Source: a virus
DNA: 47,593 nt
Reading direction: 5' to 3' (one strand)
Virus record (IMG/VR): IMGVR_UViG_3300005253_000686
Coordinates: 1-47,593 of that record
Within the stretch, counting starts at the first letter, position 1; every line of letters starts with the position of its first letter. Shown here in pieces: positions 18,191 through 34,517 of this stretch. Position numbers and translations under genes: made by a program. Under the pieces are notes generated by a model. It searched no databases, was not told the origin of the DNA, and worked only from the letters and a program-made list of their open reading frames with translations.

Positions 18191-18790
18191 TTAAATCTCT
18201 TTTCCTGTGCTTCCTAATAAATCAATGTCACTTTCTACCTCATTGCCCCAAACATCCCAACCCTCTGTTTTTTGTCTTGCAAACAATTCTATTCGTAGAA
18301 TATCACCACTAAACTCTACAATCTTTTTTCTAATTATATATGGTTTTTTACTATGATACTCTCTAATCGTTTCTACTATACTTCCTATTGAATTGCTTAT
18401 TTTTGGTGCTTTGCCTTTAACACCAATTAAACAAACCTCTGCATTAGACCTTGTGTACCAACCAACACCAAAAAAGTTTGTCCAATTCTTGTTTTTCTTA
18501 ACCCAAACAAATCCTACTGTTTTATATTCAAAACCCCACGCTTTAATTACATTTAGGGCTTCTTGTATTTTTGGAAATGTCGCCCACAAAAATAGAATAC
18601 AATTATCATTTACAATAGATTGTATCGGTAGCTTCTCTATGTCTTCTTGGCTCATTGTTTTGTAATGACTGTTGGCGGTCGCTTGTATATTTCCCATATT
18701 TCTATATGACCATGGGGGGTCAGCATAAATTATTTGATATTTCTTCCGCATAGCAGGAAGGCAATCTGCATTATAAACTACATTTTTCAT
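18191..18790 (-). CDS. MT-A70-type DNA N6-adenine methyltransferase, 199 aa
   Basis: Motif IV is intact: QIIYADPPWSYRNMG near residue 20, with the DPPW signature of the MT-A70 family. Later come LFLWATFPKIQEAL..I..WGFEYKTVGFVWVKKN (SAM-fold strands), GVGWYTRSNAEVCLIGVKG and HSKKPYIIRKKIVEF, all typical of phage and bacterial members. It should transfer a methyl group from SAM to adenine N6 in DNA. Its ATG overlaps the terL stop (ATGA). Likely protects packaged DNA from host restriction. No target-recognition domain is visible. Confidence 0.9.
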   Translation of the reverse strand: MKNVVYNADCLPAMRKKYQIIYADPPWSYRNMGNIQATANSHYKTMSQEDIEKLPIQSIVNDNCILFLWATFPKIQEALNVIKAWGFEYKTVGFVWVKKNKNWTNFFGVGWYTRSNAEVCLIGVKGKAPKISNSIGSIVETIREYHSKKPYIIRKKIVEFSGDILRIELFARQKTEGWDVWGNEVESDIDLLGSTGKEI

Positions 18791-20469
18791 TCTGGATAAA
18801 CATCTATCTCTCCCGACCTGTCTATCTCAAATTCATCTTCATCGGGATTTTGATATTTTTCTTTAACTTTCTCTAATTCAGGTTTATATGATTCTTTTAA
18901 AGCCCAGTAAAATGCCTCAAGGGTGTCTTTTTTTGTTTTTCCACCTTTTGTTAGTGCTAATATTTCAGATTCAAACTGACTCATGTCTTCTTTAAAAAAT
19001 ACTGCTCCCTGTGCGCAACGAGGTTGCAACTCCATAATTCTATAAACTTTATTCCCGATTGCATCACGTGGTTGAATATTAAAGAAGTGTCCCGCCTCCT
19101 TGCTTTTGACAAACATATACGGAGCAAGCATTTCGTGTCCGGTTTTCTCGATATTTACTATTTTAGGTTGATATTTTACCATTCTTTTCCAAAGTTCTGT
19201 TGCTCCATCCATCGGATTAACTTGACCTCTGAAATATTCTATAACAAACGCATTATTGCGATTATCTACTGCAACAACCATTACTACTGTATAATCAGCC
19301 CTAACATTTTCACTACTTGCCGGATCAACTCCAATAAATATATTAACAGGGAAAGCCTCATCTATATCAATATCTTCGTGAGTAAATCTTCCCTTAATTT
19401 CTTTGAGACTAAGGAACCACGTTTTTAACTCATCATCATAAGCAACATCTCCATCCCAATATTGAATATCAATCTTTTTGAATATCCTAAACGCATCAGT
19501 AATCGCAATTCCTTGATACTCTTGAAAGAAAACGTGAATTCTGCCTTGAGACTTTAATTCTTCTTTTCTGTTTTTAAGCCATTCATAAGATTTTCTCTCC
19601 GGCCATAATACTTTAGGAACTCCATTTTTATCTAATATTTCCTTGCCTTCTCCAATAAATTCTCCCGGTTCTGTGTCTTGTAGAATTGCTTGAAAAAATC
19701 TATGCTTCCATCCTTTGATTTTATACTTCCCTTTAAACCAAGCTGCTGATCCTGCAACTGTATTAAGATATGCTTCTTCATCAAGAATTGTACCTCCCAT
19801 AACTAATATACCATCAGCACAACCGGGAATAACTACAGCATCTAACCATCTGCAAAACTTCTCTCTTTGCCCTATTGTTAAAGTGTTTGCCTCTCCCTCT
19901 CCATCATCAATTATAACATCTGGTCGCCAAGCTCCAAACTTCAATCCTCTTACTTTTTGTCCTACCCCTCGAATAAGAATCCTCGCAATAGAATTTCTGC
20001 GGTCTTTATTGAATTTTGTAATAAACAATTTCGATTCTTTTCCCCACGTTGAACCCATCCTATCTCCAAAAAAGAATTTGTATTTAGGATTGAATTCAAC
20101 TTCATTTCCAAGCGTTTCAAGATTTAACATTGACTGCTGTTCAGATTCGGAGATCATCAAAAGAAATCGCATATTATCATAAGTAAGACTGTGTAAAGGA
20201 TATAAAAGTGTTAATATTGTTGTTTTCGCGTGTTCGCGGGGAGCTTGTAGTGCATATTTATCTCCCGGTTGGAGCAATTCTAAGTCAGAATTGATTATTT
20301 TATGGAATTCGGGAGAGGCATCTCTAAAATGATAGTGCATATCTCCCAGTTCTTTGTCTCCTAAAATAATTTTAGCAAACAAAAACCTATCCAACAACAT
20401 CATCGTTGTCAGTTCATATTTTTCGTTCTCGTTAAGACGATTTAGTTGGCTGTACTGCGTGTGGTCCAA
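18787..20469 (-). CDS. terL: Terminase large subunit, 560 aa
   Basis: ATPase: variant Walker A APREHAKTT at residues 76-84, and Walker B VIIDDGE at 185-191. RNase H-like nuclease: FIGVDPASSENVRADYT at 378-394 with the first metal-binding Asp at about 382. The length is normal. The start appears to be TTG at 20469, overlapping the upstream stop as TAATTG, because the first ATG in frame (about residue 23) would cut into the conserved N-terminus. It packages DNA through the portal. It lies far from the portal-proximal end, separated by a terminator and promoter. Confidence 0.92.
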   Translation of the reverse strand: MDHTQYSQLNRLNENEKYELTTMMLLDRFLFAKIILGDKELGDMHYHFRDASPEFHKIINSDLELLQPGDKYALQAPREHAKTTILTLLYPLHSLTYDNMRFLLMISESEQQSMLNLETLGNEVEFNPKYKFFFGDRMGSTWGKESKLFITKFNKDRRNSIARILIRGVGQKVRGLKFGAWRPDVIIDDGEGEANTLTIGQREKFCRWLDAVVIPGCADGILVMGGTILDEEAYLNTVAGSAAWFKGKYKIKGWKHRFFQAILQDTEPGEFIGEGKEILDKNGVPKVLWPERKSYEWLKNRKEELKSQGRIHVFFQEYQGIAITDAFRIFKKIDIQYWDGDVAYDDELKTWFLSLKEIKGRFTHEDIDIDEAFPVNIFIGVDPASSENVRADYTVVMVVAVDNRNNAFVIEYFRGQVNPMDGATELWKRMVKYQPKIVNIEKTGHEMLAPYMFVKSKEAGHFFNIQPRDAIGNKVYRIMELQPRCAQGAVFFKEDMSQFESEILALTKGGKTKKDTLEAFYWALKESYKPELEKVKEKYQNPDEDEFEIDRSGEIDVYPE

Positions 20470-20775
20470 TTATGCTTCCACTTTTGGTTTTTCTATTTTA
20501 ATCCGTGCAGTAACATATTCTTCTTTAAATATTTCGTACTCTTTGCCTTTAAAATTAAAGACTGTTGGAACGTGATGCTCGTAGACTACTAAGTCTCCCA
20601 CTTGTAAGAATTGACAGAGAGCTCCCTTCGCAACAACCCTTCTTGTGCGGTACGGTGATTCCTTTTCTTCTAACTGTTCCTTAACGTGATCGGGGAGTAT
20701 TATTCCTGAATGTTTCTTTTCATCTACTGTAGGTTTTTCTGCTATTATATATGTGCCAAGAGGTTCAAGATTCAT
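20470..20775 (-). CDS. GroES-like co-chaperonin, 101 aa
   Basis: The Cpn10 pattern is clear over nearly its whole length: PLGTYIIAEKP (strand 1), a mobile-loop region with SGIILPD at about 24-30, VVAKG at 47-51, VQVGD-like LQVGDLVVYE at 56-65, and GKEYEIFKEEYVTARI at the end. Host Cpn10 proteins are about 95-100 aa. No GroEL is present, so it should cap the host chaperonin, as T4 gp31 does for its coat protein. Gene position beside terL fits a capsid-assembly role. Confidence 0.85.
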   Translation of the reverse strand: MNLEPLGTYIIAEKPTVDEKKHSGIILPDHVKEQLEEKESPYRTRRVVAKGALCQFLQVGDLVVYEHHVPTVFNFKGKEYEIFKEEYVTARIKIEKPKVEA

Positions 20776-24031: not shown

Positions 24032-24207
24032 TAATTTCCTCCTAATCTCCCAAAGGGAGTTTCAATATGTTTATTAACAACAATGTATTCAACCGGATTC
24101 CAAAAATCTTTCCTAAATTGGCAAAAACCCCATAGATATTTTCCTGCATTTCTGTAATAATACCATCTACGGAGTTTCTTACTATGTTTGCCTATCCAAT
24201 ATATCAT
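24031..24207 (-). CDS. Unrecognised small aromatic protein, 58 aa
   Basis: Start taken as ATG 24207, overlapping the HNH stop (ATGA); a TTG start nine bases earlier is possible. Rich in Trp/Tyr/Arg (KKLRRWYYYRNAGKYLWGF). Unrecognised. Confidence 0.55.
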   Translation of the reverse strand: MIYWIGKHSKKLRRWYYYRNAGKYLWGFCQFRKDFWNPVEYIVVNKHIETPFGRLGGN

Positions 24208-24731
24208 CTCATCCAAGCCCCTCTATTGATAACATTATAAACTGTATAATAATTAAATCCCATTGATTTTGCTATTTCGCTAATTGTTATTCCGTGTTTT
24301 TCCATTACTCTCATTTGTTCGGCAATTTCATAGGACAATACGTTGGTTCTTCTGTTTCGACTATTTTCTTTTTGAGGAACCCATCTGCAATTATAGAGCT
24401 CATAGTTTCCATCATTCTTTATTCGATCAATTTGATAGCCTTTTGGTGCTTTTCCCATATCTTTTAAAAAATTATCAAAAGAATTAATCCACCTTTCACA
24501 AACCCTAATTCCTCTCTTATTATAATTATGGTAATCCTCTCCCTTAGAATTTATAGAACATCTAAACTTCATAGCAGACCAAGTTCTATATTCTTTTGTC
24601 TGTAGATTTTTGCTTGTTCTTTTAGGAAGATTAACGCTACCAATCCTCATAAGCCTTCTGTAGTGTTTACCACACAGTTCTTTGGCATCAACAATTCCAT
24701 TACAGTTATCTACTAAACATGTTTTTTCCAT
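24204..24731 (-). CDS. HNH homing endonuclease with C-terminal HTH, 175 aa
   Basis: N-terminal Cys/His zinc-binding pattern (CLVDNCNG...CGKHY), then KFRCSINSKGEDYHNYNKRGIRVCERW and PKGYQIDRIKNDGNYELYNCRWVPQKENSRNRR, the HNH core of the type found in free-standing phage enzymes. The last 40 residues form a short HTH (GITISEIAKSMGFNYYTVYNVI). A paralogue lies at 33689-34210. The start is weak; a GGAT with a small hairpin between it and the ATG may be the ribosome site. First gene of the leftward operon. Confidence 0.82.
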   Translation of the reverse strand: MEKTCLVDNCNGIVDAKELCGKHYRRLMRIGSVNLPKRTSKNLQTKEYRTWSAMKFRCSINSKGEDYHNYNKRGIRVCERWINSFDNFLKDMGKAPKGYQIDRIKNDGNYELYNCRWVPQKENSRNRRTNVLSYEIAEQMRVMEKHGITISEIAKSMGFNYYTVYNVINRGAWMR

Positions 24732-24866
24732 AAGCAATATTACAACAATAATATCCTGTACGCAAGTAATTTATATTACCATAAGCCATTACAACCTAAT
24801 ATATAGGTTAAATTATCACTTTACCTCAAATAAGAGGATGCACGACAAATATGCCTTTTCACACGC

Positions 24867-24968
24867 GGGGGAGACACAAATAGTACCACAAAACAAAGCG
24901 TCGGAAATTTTTCCAGTGATCACAATTTATCTTGTCGAGGAGAACATCCCAGCGTGATCATCTCCCCC
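24867..24968. ncRNA. Three-way-junction RNA candidate
   Basis: Perfect nested inverted repeats: P1 8 bp (24867-24874 with 24961-24968), P2 7 bp (TGATCAC at 24917-24923 with GTGATCA at 24954-24960), and P3 GGAAA/TTTCC (24903-24914). P2 abuts P1 directly. Both strands fold equally. On the minus strand it would be in the 5' leader of the leftward operon. No known family recognised; it could also be two DNA sites for a dimeric protein. Confidence 0.45.
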
Positions 24969-25336
24969 TAGCCTATCTTTACACTACTATAACCTCTCCA
25001 CTCGCGAATTTTTTTGCCAAAATAATATAACACAACTATCCCCCTCAAATACCCTCGACCACTTTAAACTGTTAAAAAAATCTGCGGACATCTAATGTAT
25101 AAAAACGCACCCCGCCTTTTTCGGTTTCGTATATAGTGGATTCCGTTGACCATTTTTTTGGTTGACAGTTTGATCTGATCCGGTCCCGCATACATTAATT
25201 ATATTGTTTTACTGCCACAATGACATAAAGACACAAAACACCACAATCCAACAACACTACATAAACTCAATGATAACAACATCATACAACGGTATTCATA
25301 ATCCTATTATACATAATGTATCTTATACGACATTGA

Positions 25337-26193: not shown

Positions 26194-26376
26194 ATGAAAA
26201 TAAAAGACGCACCAATCGGATCAACTGTAACACAAAATGGTAATAAAGCCATTGTTTTGAGTTCCGGTCCAATGGGTTGTCGTGTTTGCGTAAAAGAATC
26301 AAAAGATCCTGACTCAATAACGCTTGGCAATCAAATTTGGTCAAATAATACTCTTGTAACAGTAGTCAAAAAATAG
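26194..26376 (+). CDS. Small beta-rich protein, 60 aa
   Basis: Short, Ser/Thr/Val-rich, with a beta pattern (GSTVTQNGNKAIVLSSGPMGCRVCV). Directly follows the 107-aa gene. Function unknown; small orphan proteins at this position are often host-takeover or counter-defence factors. Confidence 0.6.
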   Translation: MKIKDAPIGSTVTQNGNKAIVLSSGPMGCRVCVKESKDPDSITLGNQIWSNNTLVTVVKK

Positions 26377-26418
26377 TATGTTCTTTTGTGAATAAGGTCA
26401 ATTATAATTTCAATAAAT

Positions 26419-26490
26419 ACCGAGATAACCAAATCCGTGAGGACTGGTGCGCTCCTATTGGCTGCGCTCACATATCTCGGTTGTTTTTTT
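26419..26490 (+). ncRNA. Structured leader RNA of the GIY-YIG homing endonuclease (element E1)
   Basis: A 9-bp closing helix (26419-26427 with 26473-26481) encloses about 45 bases that contain a second helix GTGAG/CTCAC. It is followed by TTG and seven T (26484-26490), then GAGG and the endonuclease ATG at 26501. The right arm, T-run and Shine-Dalgarno are identical over 22 bases to the leader of the HNH gene at 33689-34210 (opposite strand). Resembles a terminator or attenuator expression platform. No known RNA family recognised. Confidence 0.6.
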
Positions 26491-26500
26491 GAGGTCAATT

Positions 26501-26968
26501 ATGGTAGTATATAAAATAACCAATTTAATAAACGGAAAAGTCTATATTGGTGCGACTGTTCAAACATTGTTACATAGAAAGGCAGGTCATGTTTACGATA
26601 GCAAAAGACACAATGGTAATATTAATCAAGCAATTAGAAAATACGGTAAAGATAATTTCAAGTGGGAAATGCTTTGTGTTTGCTATAGTGTTAATGTCCT
26701 TAATGAAATGGAAAAACACTATATCTCTTTGTATGATTCAATGAATATTGGCTACAATATGACTACCGGAGGCAAACATTTTAGCGGATCTGCTGAATAT
26801 AGGCGCAACATAACAGGCGAAAACAATGGTATGTATGGCAAAAAGCACTCAAAAGAGACTCGTAAACAATATAGCAAGGTACGTACTGGCACAAAACGAT
26901 CAAAAGAGACTCGCAAAAGAATGAGTATTGCTCAAATAAAACGAAGAAAACAAGAAAAAGCTAAGTAA
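26501..26968 (+). CDS. GIY-YIG homing endonuclease, 155 aa
   Basis: GIY-YIG core at the N-terminus: VVYKITNLINGKVYIGAT, then a catalytic Arg region (LLHRKAGHVYD) and MEKHYISLYDSMNIGYNMTTGG with the family's Glu and Asn. The C-terminal half has NUMOD3-type repeats (NNGMYGKKHSKETRKQYSK; KRSKETRKRMS) for DNA binding. The start is ATG 26501 after GAGG; the longer frame reads through the leader structure. Paralogue at 32563-33312. Free-standing, inserted in the small-gene operon. Confidence 0.88.
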   Translation: MVVYKITNLINGKVYIGATVQTLLHRKAGHVYDSKRHNGNINQAIRKYGKDNFKWEMLCVCYSVNVLNEMEKHYISLYDSMNIGYNMTTGGKHFSGSAEYRRNITGENNGMYGKKHSKETRKQYSKVRTGTKRSKETRKRMSIAQIKRRKQEKAK

Positions 26969-32004: not shown

Positions 32005-32585
32005 ACCTTGATCCCTTTTTCTTTTTCTATGAATCGAACTGAAACCCTGTAAATCTTAACAATTTCTCTAATCTCTTTTTCTGAAAAATCTGAAATATTC
32101 TTACCTTTTTCCTTTAATTCATCAACCGCAACAGTTCCAATTTCCTTTAATAATCTTTGTTCAAATTCAAAATGTTTTCCCCCTTGATAACAATTACATT
32201 TAGTACATTGAGGTCTTGCATTATTAACTTCCCACCGGACTGAATGATGTCCTCTGCCAATAAAGTGTCCACAATCCATTTTTTTGATATTATTAAGAGT
32301 TCTGCAAGTATAACACTCAACATATACAATATCTCCGTACACAGTAGCCTTAATTAGCCTAATATACTTGCTAAACCAAAAATCAGCCCTGCCTACCGCC
32401 CTTTGCATTGGAGTACGAGATTTTGGCAATTTAAGCGTTTTTTTGTGCGCATTTTTAATGTTAGACTTCGCGTAATTCCTTTTATAGAGGCAATTAGGTG
32501 CATATTTGCTATATGAAATCCCAGTTTGGCGATTGATTACCACAGCCCTACCACAACCACATTTACAAAGTTTTTTTTGCTTCAT
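31998..32585 (-). CDS. NinG-like recombination protein, 195 aa
   Basis: Zinc motifs typical of NinG/Rap: CKCGCGRAVV at the N-terminus, then CYTCRTLNNIKKMDCGHFIGRG...VRWEVNNARPQCTKCNCYQGG, a His/Cys/Asn core like HNH-type Holliday-junction nucleases. The start is ATG 32585, with AAAGGA upstream; the longer frame begins at TTG within the GIY-YIG gene. It overlaps the GIY-YIG endonuclease's 3' end by 23 bases. Confidence 0.8.
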   Translation of the reverse strand: MKQKKLCKCGCGRAVVINRQTGISYSKYAPNCLYKRNYAKSNIKNAHKKTLKLPKSRTPMQRAVGRADFWFSKYIRLIKATVYGDIVYVECYTCRTLNNIKKMDCGHFIGRGHHSVRWEVNNARPQCTKCNCYQGGKHFEFEQRLLKEIGTVAVDELKEKGKNISDFSEKEIREIVKIYRVSVRFIEKEKGIKVW

Positions 32586-33312
32586 CTCTCCATTTCCTTT
32601 GTGCAATTTTCATCTTTTTTATTGTTTCTTCGGTATGTTTTTTACCATAAAATGCATTGTTTTTACCTTTTCTGTCGGGCAAGTTATTAATCATTTTAGT
32701 TTTCGTTTCTTCTGACATTTTTCTTCCCCACATAGGATTGTTTTTTCCTTTCAATATTTTATCGGGATTGTTTTTTAAATATAAAATCCTTGCGTCACTC
32801 ATTTTCTTTTTGGTCTCTACTGTATTTTTAATACCATAGTGTGGATGTTTTTCCCCTTTTAAATCTCTTTTTTTGCCATACATCGGGTTGTTTTTGCCTG
32901 CGTTTGCCTTTCTCATCTTCTCCCGCGTTTCTTCGGAGACTGTATAATTTTCTCCACCACTTGTCATATTATACCCATCATTCATTGAATTATATAAAGC
33001 AATATAATGTTGCTCCATCTCATTAAGAACATTAACACTATAACAAATACAGAGAACTTCCCAATTAAAGTTTTCTTTACCATGTTTAATCAACGCGCTG
33101 TGGAAATGATTATTAACACTACGTTGCGCACTTTTTAAATGTTCATTTTTACGCCAAGCTAAACCATTGATTGTTTGCCCTACATAAAATTTACCGTTGA
33201 TTTTATTGGTAACCTTATAGATTATCATATTAGAAATAGGTATGCCATTTCTATAGACAATTAACCTATCACAATTTGGAGTTTTGCAAACTTTTATTCT
33301 TTTTTCAATCAT
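32563..33312 (-). CDS. GIY-YIG homing endonuclease with four or more NUMOD3 repeats, 249 aa
   Basis: A short Cys-containing leader (KVCKTPNCDRLI) is followed by the GIY-YIG core MIIYKVTNKINGKFYVGQT, WRKNEHL and EMEQHYIALYNSMNDGYNMTSGG. The last 130 residues are repeated NUMOD3 units (NNPMYGKKR; HPHYGIK; NNPMWGRKMSEETK; NNAFYGKKHTEETIKKM). It is a close paralogue of the plus-strand enzyme (both share CYSVNVLNEME.HYI.LY.SMN). It lies between an HTH gene and NinG and overlaps NinG. Confidence 0.88.
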   Translation of the reverse strand: MIEKRIKVCKTPNCDRLIVYRNGIPISNMIIYKVTNKINGKFYVGQTINGLAWRKNEHLKSAQRSVNNHFHSALIKHGKENFNWEVLCICYSVNVLNEMEQHYIALYNSMNDGYNMTSGGENYTVSEETREKMRKANAGKNNPMYGKKRDLKGEKHPHYGIKNTVETKKKMSDARILYLKNNPDKILKGKNNPMWGRKMSEETKTKMINNLPDRKGKNNAFYGKKHTEETIKKMKIAQRKWRDEAKKTL

Positions 33313-33502: not shown

Positions 33503-33692
33503 TTAGTAACTCCTGTATGTCTCTCAATGCTATCAAATATTTATCGCCATTCTTTTTGGGATAATTCTCTCCTATATAAGATAATCTTAGTTTGTTAATC
33601 CTATCTGATATAAAATTCATTATCTCTATTCTTGCTTTAATGCTTCTTGTATATGGTTTTAATTGCTGATAAAAAGAAACGTTTTTATTCAT
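33486..33692 (-). CDS. Unrecognised protein, 68 aa
   Basis: Start taken as ATG 33692 (GGAGGAAAA before it), overlapping the HNH stop by ATGA; the frame can be extended four codons to TTG. Basic helical protein. Function unknown. Confidence 0.6.
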   Translation of the reverse strand: MNKNVSFYQQLKPYTRSIKARIEIMNFISDRINKLRLSYIGENYPKKNGDKYLIALRDIQELLNDTKK

Positions 33693-34210
33693 TTTTCCTC
33701 CCAAGCGTTGTGATATATAACGCTTTCTATGGTAGGGTGTTTTATTTCCATTATTTTTGATATTTCTTTAGGATACATGCCTTTTTTATATAAGAGTCTA
33801 ATCTTATTTGCTTTCTTTATACTAAGAACATTATTGCGTTTGTTTCTGTTATTCTCTGCGGAAGTAGTCCATCTGCAATTTTCGGGAGTATAATCTCCAT
33901 TATTATCAATTCTGTCAATTTGCATACCATCAGGCTTTTCCCCCATATCTTTATAAAAAGACAAAAAAGCTTTTCGCCATTCATAACAAACTTTTATCCC
34001 GCGCTCACCGTAAATTTTATATTTTGCATTGTTTGGATTTGTACAACGTTGAATCATTGTACACCAAGTGTCATAAATTGGGTTTGTGGACATTCCGTGT
34101 CCTTTGGTTATATAAGGAGAGCCGTGCCTACGATAACGAGCCCTGTGCATCTCACAATAACCATTAGCACAGTATTTTTTATCACAACCACTAATTGTAC
34201 ATATTCTCAT
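33689..34210 (-). CDS. HNH homing endonuclease with C-terminal HTH, 173 aa
   Basis: Same architecture as the HNH gene at 24204-24731: N-terminal Cys/His knuckle (CTISGCDKKYCANGYCEMH), KYKIYGERGIKVCYEWRKAF, then QIDRIDNNGDYTPENCRWTTSAENNRNKRNN (HNH core) and a C-terminal HTH (YPKEISKIMEIKHPTIESVI). ATG 34210 follows GAGGTTAAT and the structured leader at 34215-34290. Free-standing, inserted among the replication genes. Confidence 0.85.
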   Translation of the reverse strand: MRICTISGCDKKYCANGYCEMHRARYRRHGSPYITKGHGMSTNPIYDTWCTMIQRCTNPNNAKYKIYGERGIKVCYEWRKAFLSFYKDMGEKPDGMQIDRIDNNGDYTPENCRWTTSAENNRNKRNNVLSIKKANKIRLLYKKGMYPKEISKIMEIKHPTIESVIYHNAWEEK

Positions 34211-34214
34211 ATTA

Positions 34215-34290
34215 ACCTCAAAAAAACAACCGAGATGATGTTACGCGCCAAAGGGAACGCCCCGCACTTCACAGATACAGGCATCTCGGT
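34215..34290 (-). ncRNA. Structured leader RNA of the HNH homing endonuclease (element E2)
   Basis: On the minus strand, a 9-bp closing helix (34282-34290 with 34229-34237) encloses about 44 bases with GCG.../CGC pairing, then TTG, seven T and GAGG. The helix and the following 22 bases equal those of E1. Its ninth pair is G-C where E1 has A-U, a compensatory change. The remaining gap to 34335 (about 45 bases) holds nothing recognised. Confidence 0.6.
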
Positions 34291-34334
34291 AATTGTAGGA
34301 TTAATATAATTGGACTTTAACATAAAAGAATATA

Positions 34335-34517
34335 CTACTTTTTAATGGTATCTGCAATTTTGTCCTTAGAATTCAAATGTATAACCTTACAAGGGACATA
34401 AACCGGACTACATAAAGCACCAATTTGAGAGAGAACCCTCTCACAATCTTCTTCTTTTAACATCAAATCTTTGAGAACCTCTAAAAATGAATCAATTATC
34501 ATTTCTCTAGTTTGCAT
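34335..34517 (-). CDS. Unrecognised protein, 60 aa
   Basis: Helical N-terminal half (IIDSFLEVLKDLMLKEEDCERVL). Starts at the stop of the small membrane protein upstream (TAATG). Last gene before the HNH cassette. Function unknown. Confidence 0.6.
   Translation of the reverse strand: MQTREMIIDSFLEVLKDLMLKEEDCERVLSQIGALCSPVYVPCKVIHLNSKDKIADTIKK

Follow-up and report, generated by a model that had tools for sequence, protein, structure and literature searches.

A structured leader with a possible terminator/attenuator role precedes two unrelated homing endonuclease genes of one phage

In T4-like phages, expression of I-TevI, I-TevII, I-TevIII, segB and Aeh1 mobE is limited by leader hairpins, which sequester the ribosome site; transcription from a late promoter bypasses them (PMC2988022). 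Structured or terminator elements have been reported to lower the expression of T4 mobE, I-TevI and segB, and in T4 mobE and segF terminators lie inside the 5' end of the coding region, with about 30% termination at mobE (PMC2988022). In seg43 of Aeromonas phage 25, a stable hairpin is located directly upstream of a free ribosome site (PMC2988022, Figure 5). The T4-type phage review treats such endonuclease hairpins gene by gene only (PMC2988022). Here we report support for the original prediction that a structured leader is common to two unrelated endonuclease genes. The DNA analysed was the virus record IMGVR_UViG_3300005253_000686 at its full length of 47,593 bases (hereafter, the window). 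A cassette of about 125 bp is present as two diverged copies in this one phage, E1 on the plus strand and E2 on the minus strand, and runs from the stop codon of the upstream gene through an AT-rich promoter-like stretch, a hairpin, U7 and GAGG to the ATG. The features are as follows.

26368-26418, plus strand: upstream part of the E1 cassette; AAAAAATAG is the end of the preceding ORF; 38/51 identical to E2
26377-26390, plus strand: E1 box TATGTTCTTTTGTG
26403-26408, plus strand: E1 -10-like TATAAT
26419-26481, plus strand: E1 structured RNA (predicted); P1 26419-26427/26473-26481, P2 with GUGA loop 26428-26448, P3 26449-26467
26482-26500, plus strand: E1 tail, read from the sequence as TG, seven T, GAGG Shine-Dalgarno and spacer
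26501-26968, plus strand: GIY-YIG + NUMOD3 homing endonuclease (Pfam PF01541, 1.1e-7, and PF07460, 3.4e-7; PHROG 314, 4e-35)
34291-34343, minus strand: upstream part of the E2 cassette; AAAAAGTAG is the end of the preceding ORF
34334-34321, minus strand: E2 box TATATTCTTTTATG
34308-34303, minus strand: E2 -10-like TATATT
34229-34290, minus strand: E2 structured RNA (predicted), three-way junction as in E1; P1 34290-34282/34237-34229
34211-34228, minus strand: E2 tail, read likewise as TG, seven T, GAGG Shine-Dalgarno and spacer
33689-34210, minus strand: HNH homing endonuclease (PHROG 3377, 2.4e-42; no Pfam match)
32563-33312, minus strand: second GIY-YIG endonuclease; GIY part from 33228, 50% identical to the enzyme of E1

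The closest described leader is that of seg43 of phage 25, which like E1 and E2 has a stable hairpin just 5' of an uncovered ribosome site of a phage GIY-YIG-type (segD-like) gene. However, it is a simple 9-bp hairpin with a 6-nt loop which abuts GAGG, without U-run or branching, and our covariance model of the leader (R1) did not match it. The leaders of I-TevI-III, segB and Aeh1 mobE share with E1 and E2 the presence of RNA structure before a phage endonuclease gene, but their hairpins cover the ribosome site, whereas in E1 and E2 the Shine-Dalgarno lies outside the fold and the promoter-like stretch precedes the entire fold. The terminators of T4 mobE and segF likewise combine a hairpin and a U-run able to cut endonuclease transcripts, but are situated within the coding 5' end and are not described as common to several genes. 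Outside the endonuclease genes, paired copies of a leader RNA, putL and putR, occur in phage HK022. Put RNA, too, is a compact leader RNA of a phage and lies close to the transcript start, but it suppresses pausing and termination of early genes, whereas the RNA of E1 and E2 itself ends in a U-run (PMC9378689). By analogy, the cassette is predicted to act like the T4-like endonuclease leaders, to which no homology was found. What sets it apart from that group is a three-way junction, a U-run and a promoter-like box upstream, together with its sharing by enzymes of two families.

Local alignment of E1 and E2 within the window gave 74% identity over 153 columns (E = 3e-17), a likeness which is not due to chance. 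The alignment starts at AAAAARTAG, comprising the last codons and stop of two small upstream ORFs that show no significant similarity to each other, and fades at the endonuclease start. The homology reaches about 50 bp 5' of the helix, farther than the original prediction had it, up to the point where the preceding, unrelated gene ends with its stop codon. Since it extends past both sides of P1, the possibility that the P1 arms are terminal inverted repeats of a mobile element was ruled out. In E1 the arms are ACCGAGAT (26419-26426) and ATCTCGGT (26474-26481), followed by TGTTTTTTTGAGG and the ATG at 26501 (plus strand). In E2 (minus strand) the same arms lie at 34290-34283 and 34236-34229, with the tail as in E1 and the ATG at 34210, the distance from U-run to ATG being 10 or 9 bases in the two copies. 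The closing helix and the 22 bases identical in both copies, ATCTCGGTTGTTTTTTTGAGGT, had been given correctly in the original prediction, as had the motifs GTGA, TTGGC and GCG common to both interiors. A 21-base core, ATCTCGGTTGTTTTTTTGAGG, occurred just twice in the record even when 3 mismatches were allowed, with 0 occurrences of the reversed control. Identity was 38/51 in the upstream part, 8/8 in the P1 5' arm, 25/46 in the interior, 22/23 in the P1 3' arm plus tail and 14/19 in the rest. Thus, P1, U-run and Shine-Dalgarno are unchanged while 46% of the interior positions differ, which places the constraint on helix and U-run, the needs of a terminator. A leader peptide was also considered and rejected: a short ORF of E2 overlaps the HNH start codon (ATGA), but the ATG of this ORF is ATA in E1, where the frame also shifts.

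When folded separately, E1 and E2 gave the same three-way junction, a predicted RNA of about 64 nt consisting of the 9-bp P1, P2 with a GUGA tetraloop, P3 ending CC....GG, a five-base joint and P1 again. The MFE was -26.1 kcal/mol (z -4.05) for E1 and -24.9 kcal/mol (z -2.98) for E2. The interiors had been described as different, which holds for their sequence but not for their fold, since the changes are compensatory. Among the 22 pairs, 21 were kept in both copies, the one lost being U18-A27 of E1. Four pairs changed on both sides (A-U to G-C at 11/57, A-U to C-G at 12/32, A-U to G-C at 15/29 and C-G to U-A at 20/25) and three on one side to the G-U type (14/30, 33/51 and 36/48), a pattern of compensatory change expected of a conserved structured RNA, here seen in two sequences. 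On the opposite strand the three G-U pairs would be A.C mismatches; therefore, it is the endonuclease-coding strand that is predicted to fold. Covariation had been among the checks proposed for the leader, and it was present on the mRNA strand of these two sequences; no relative was found in which to follow it further. Pairing dropped to 35-42% in a control with slid partners, and a shuffle control gave 30/500, being weak for a two-row alignment. The probability of keeping 13 of the 14 inner pairs by chance was p = 0.0067 with the same positions mutated at random, p = 0.0002 with random positions and p = 0.025 with E2's own letters permuted, values which are supportive and not decisive because the structure was derived from these same two sequences. 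We conclude that the leader is real and, in its predicted fold, structurally conserved; a conserved junction motif cannot be defined from two sequences. GAGG lay outside P1 in both folds, which differs from the I-TevI type of Shine-Dalgarno sequestration; in an extended fold of E1 alone, the bases just 5' of GAGG and at its edge paired weakly.

Upstream of the hairpin, the box TATRTTCTTTTRTG was found without mismatch at E1 and E2 only. The two upstream parts are free of indels from AAAAARTAG through CAATTATA, including the spacing from stop codon to -10, and the sole upstream length change falls between the -10 and P1. If used, TATAAT and TATATT would place the transcript start about 3-6 nt 5' of P1 in both copies, and we infer a promoter function for this stretch. 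The -35 hexamer of the cassette is poor, and promoter-like sites in the region showed no excess over shuffles.

E1 and E2 are the two most stable hairpin-plus-T-run sites of the window. A clean helix followed by a T-run whose end lies no more than 25 nt from the ATG was found only at E1 and E2 among 39 ORFs (those of the window that start with ATG, encode 90 aa or more and carry a Shine-Dalgarno-like motif). Elsewhere, at relatives of the enzymes, this layout preceded 0/27 endonuclease genes and 2/201 other ORFs, and therefore these enzyme families do not use it as a rule. As in intrinsic terminators, a stable G+C-containing hairpin is followed by a U-rich tract within about 2 nt, the 9-bp P1 closing a fold of -25 to -26 kcal/mol before UGUUUUUUU. 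The loop of 3-8 and the strong tail score of such terminators were not found: the interior is branched and 44-45 nt long, and the tail score was 3.5 as against 5.4 and 6.1 at two ordinary terminator-like sites of this phage. A terminator scan restricted to loops of 3-8 did not call E1 or E2. With the branched interior of its 63-nt hairpin and the interrupted U-run (UGU7), the leader is an untypical terminator, and it counts against the terminator reading that a terminator alone needs no preserved interior fold. The hairpin and U-run directly before the Shine-Dalgarno are consistent with the suggested terminator/attenuator, but its being switchable is not supported, no alternative pairing of the leader having been found.

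The two enzymes proved unrelated, as had been claimed, one being GIY-YIG + NUMOD3 by Pfam and the other HNH by PHROGs (E 2e-42) without a Pfam match. Both are free-standing, lying between phage genes outside any intron or intein, and Rfam matched no intron family. An HNH gene at 24204-24737, related to the enzyme of E2 (40% aa), is leaderless; the region upstream of it (24738-25100, minus strand) is a long non-coding stretch with several G-rich runs. The second GIY-YIG gene (32563-33312, minus strand), also without the leader, follows the HNH gene of E2 after 461 bp in the same gene run, and the leader may therefore have moved with a GIY-YIG gene. The two GIY-YIG genes share a 125-bp stretch of 81% DNA identity (26639-26763, plus strand, against part of 32563-33312, minus strand). 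At their identical residues, 29/54 third positions match, which is close to the 25/46 of the RNA interior; therefore, either the duplication happened long ago or different phages contributed the copies. Leader and GIY-YIG gene may have been duplicated as one, the HNH gene arriving later between them, or the leader may have joined each enzyme separately. Of the proposal that the leader is a separate travelling module, the sharing stands; its independent movement does not follow, as the co-duplication fits too. Recent duplication does not explain the two leaders, given the 46% of differing interior positions, and recent recombination appears unlikely for the same divergence, while descent from one ancestral insertion may still account for them.

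Two further observations concern the GIY-YIG proteins. The stretch of 81% DNA identity surrounds the segment LCxCYSVNVLNEMExHYI in proteins that are 50% identical overall, suggesting strong constraint or gene conversion. The enzyme encoded at 33312-32563 (minus strand) combines four NUMOD3 motifs with CKTPNCDR, a cysteine motif at the N terminus which resembles the start of the HNH enzyme of E2, and is possibly a chimera.

Relatives of the leader were searched for in several collections. Rfam 15 held no family above gathering score, nor any at E<=5 when the leader alone was run with permissive filters. Five exact or gapped patterns (P1 3' arm plus tail; both P1 strands plus tail; interior motif; variable-gap tail; box plus -10) found no leader relative in IMG/VR, though such patterns require exact identity and may overlook copies that have diverged. 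The interior motif gave 26 matches, none with a matching fold; the variable-gap tail gave 57, of which the best reached a model score of 21 bits, from tail letters with the interior mostly missing; and the 14 matches of box plus -10 were chance. Similarly, blastn against annotated phages and plasmids yielded chance-level matches or none, model R1 had no match in the loci or complete records that carry relatives of the enzymes, and genome contigs searched with the GIY-YIG pair contained two Clostridia relatives, both without the leader. Similarity of L038/L023 to the upstream box, in an intron-like locus, was dismissed as AT-rich chance. Relatives of the large terminase were not found in IMG/VR, and therefore neither a closely related phage nor an empty site was available for comparison. 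The terminase itself (18787-20469, minus strand) matched nothing in IMG/VR when six 8-residue patterns were used and is only about 25% identical to those of known phages, a distance that makes this phage isolated within current collections. Its gene is adjoined by that of a Cpn10 (GroES-like) co-chaperonin (20470-20775, minus strand; Pfam PF00166, 1.7e-8). As these viral, phage and plasmid searches found the leader in no second genome, and just two copies are known, both in one phage, the term 'new RNA family' used in the original prediction is premature.

The best explanation, in which we place about even confidence, is that of a cis-acting 5' cassette with a terminator/attenuator hairpin that keeps expression of free-standing phage homing endonucleases low. 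The promoter-like stretch would end just 5' of the three-way-junction RNA, whose P1 abuts UGU7 and the Shine-Dalgarno, and helix and U-run would serve as intrinsic terminator or attenuator. Transcripts begun just upstream, or entering from the upstream gene, would mostly stop in the U-run without reaching the ribosome site, and the fraction that reads through would yield a little endonuclease. What the sequences show are the homology, the predicted fold kept in both copies, its strand and its position; termination and low expression are inferred. P1, U-run and Shine-Dalgarno would be under sequence constraint, while P2 and P3 would need just their fold. Since the leader is common to two unrelated enzymes, the RNA is expected to be read by something shared and not by the enzyme itself, candidates being RNA polymerase, the ribosome, RNases or a host/phage factor.

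The leader could instead provide insulation only, which we regard as unlikely, being a terminator of the upstream genes that came with the endonuclease when it inserted, with no promoter 5' of the hairpin. This would agree with the start of both cassettes at the upstream stop codon, with the position of both loci between co-directional genes, with the terminators flanking T4 segD (PMC2988022) and with the ordinary terminators found shortly upstream of some related viral GIY-YIG genes (L031, L036 and L045), but not with the -10-like TATAAT/TATATT and the rigidly spaced box conserved 5' of the hairpin. There is, moreover, no promoter room between hairpin and ribosome site, so that under insulation the endonuclease would depend on readthrough, which counts against it. 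In L031, L036 and L045 (upstream of 3001, 1940 and 3001, respectively), the start region after the ordinary terminator is conserved and resembles CATATTTATAATAAAGAATTYTATG.

It is rather doubtful that the leader represents a new class of three-way-junction RNA, namely a plug-in cassette of promoter, structured attenuator and ribosome site for selfish endonucleases of different families, recognised by a host or phage factor common to them. Improbable, too, is a stand-alone phage small RNA gene in two copies (promoter, structured RNA of about 75 nt and U-run terminator) beside which the endonucleases landed: promoter-like element, compact fold and U-run complete its outline, and T4 segB is located in a tRNA region (PMC2988022), but both copies sit exactly at a start codon, Shine-Dalgarno and ATG spacing are conserved alongside the RNA though the genes differ, and Rfam gave no match. 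We give an equally low probability to an mRNA stabiliser and translation enhancer, in which a 5'-terminal fold protects the mRNA and the U-run by the Shine-Dalgarno aids ribosome loading (S1). The hairpin would begin only a few nt from the predicted transcript start, the Shine-Dalgarno is free with the U-run directly before it, and seg43 of Aeromonas phage 25 has a like layout (PMC2988022). However, free-standing endonucleases are usually held at a low level, and any stable hairpin would do for stabilising, so the conserved three-way junction would be left unexplained. Finally, a regulated riboswitch-like or putRNA-like element, whose junction is read by a ligand, a phage factor or RNA polymerase, is very improbable, for although the compact branched fold is retained despite the interior divergence and HK022 putRNA is an example of a nascent phage leader RNA acting on RNA polymerase (PMC9378689), two sequences define no junction motif, neither alternative pairing nor relatives were found, and E1 and E2 precede single inserted genes and not whole early operons.

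Selfish endonuclease genes persist only if they are harmless to the phage, and therefore how they are kept in check matters. A shared, structurally conserved leader before two unrelated endonucleases would mean that the control cassette is an independent unit, usable by different enzymes.
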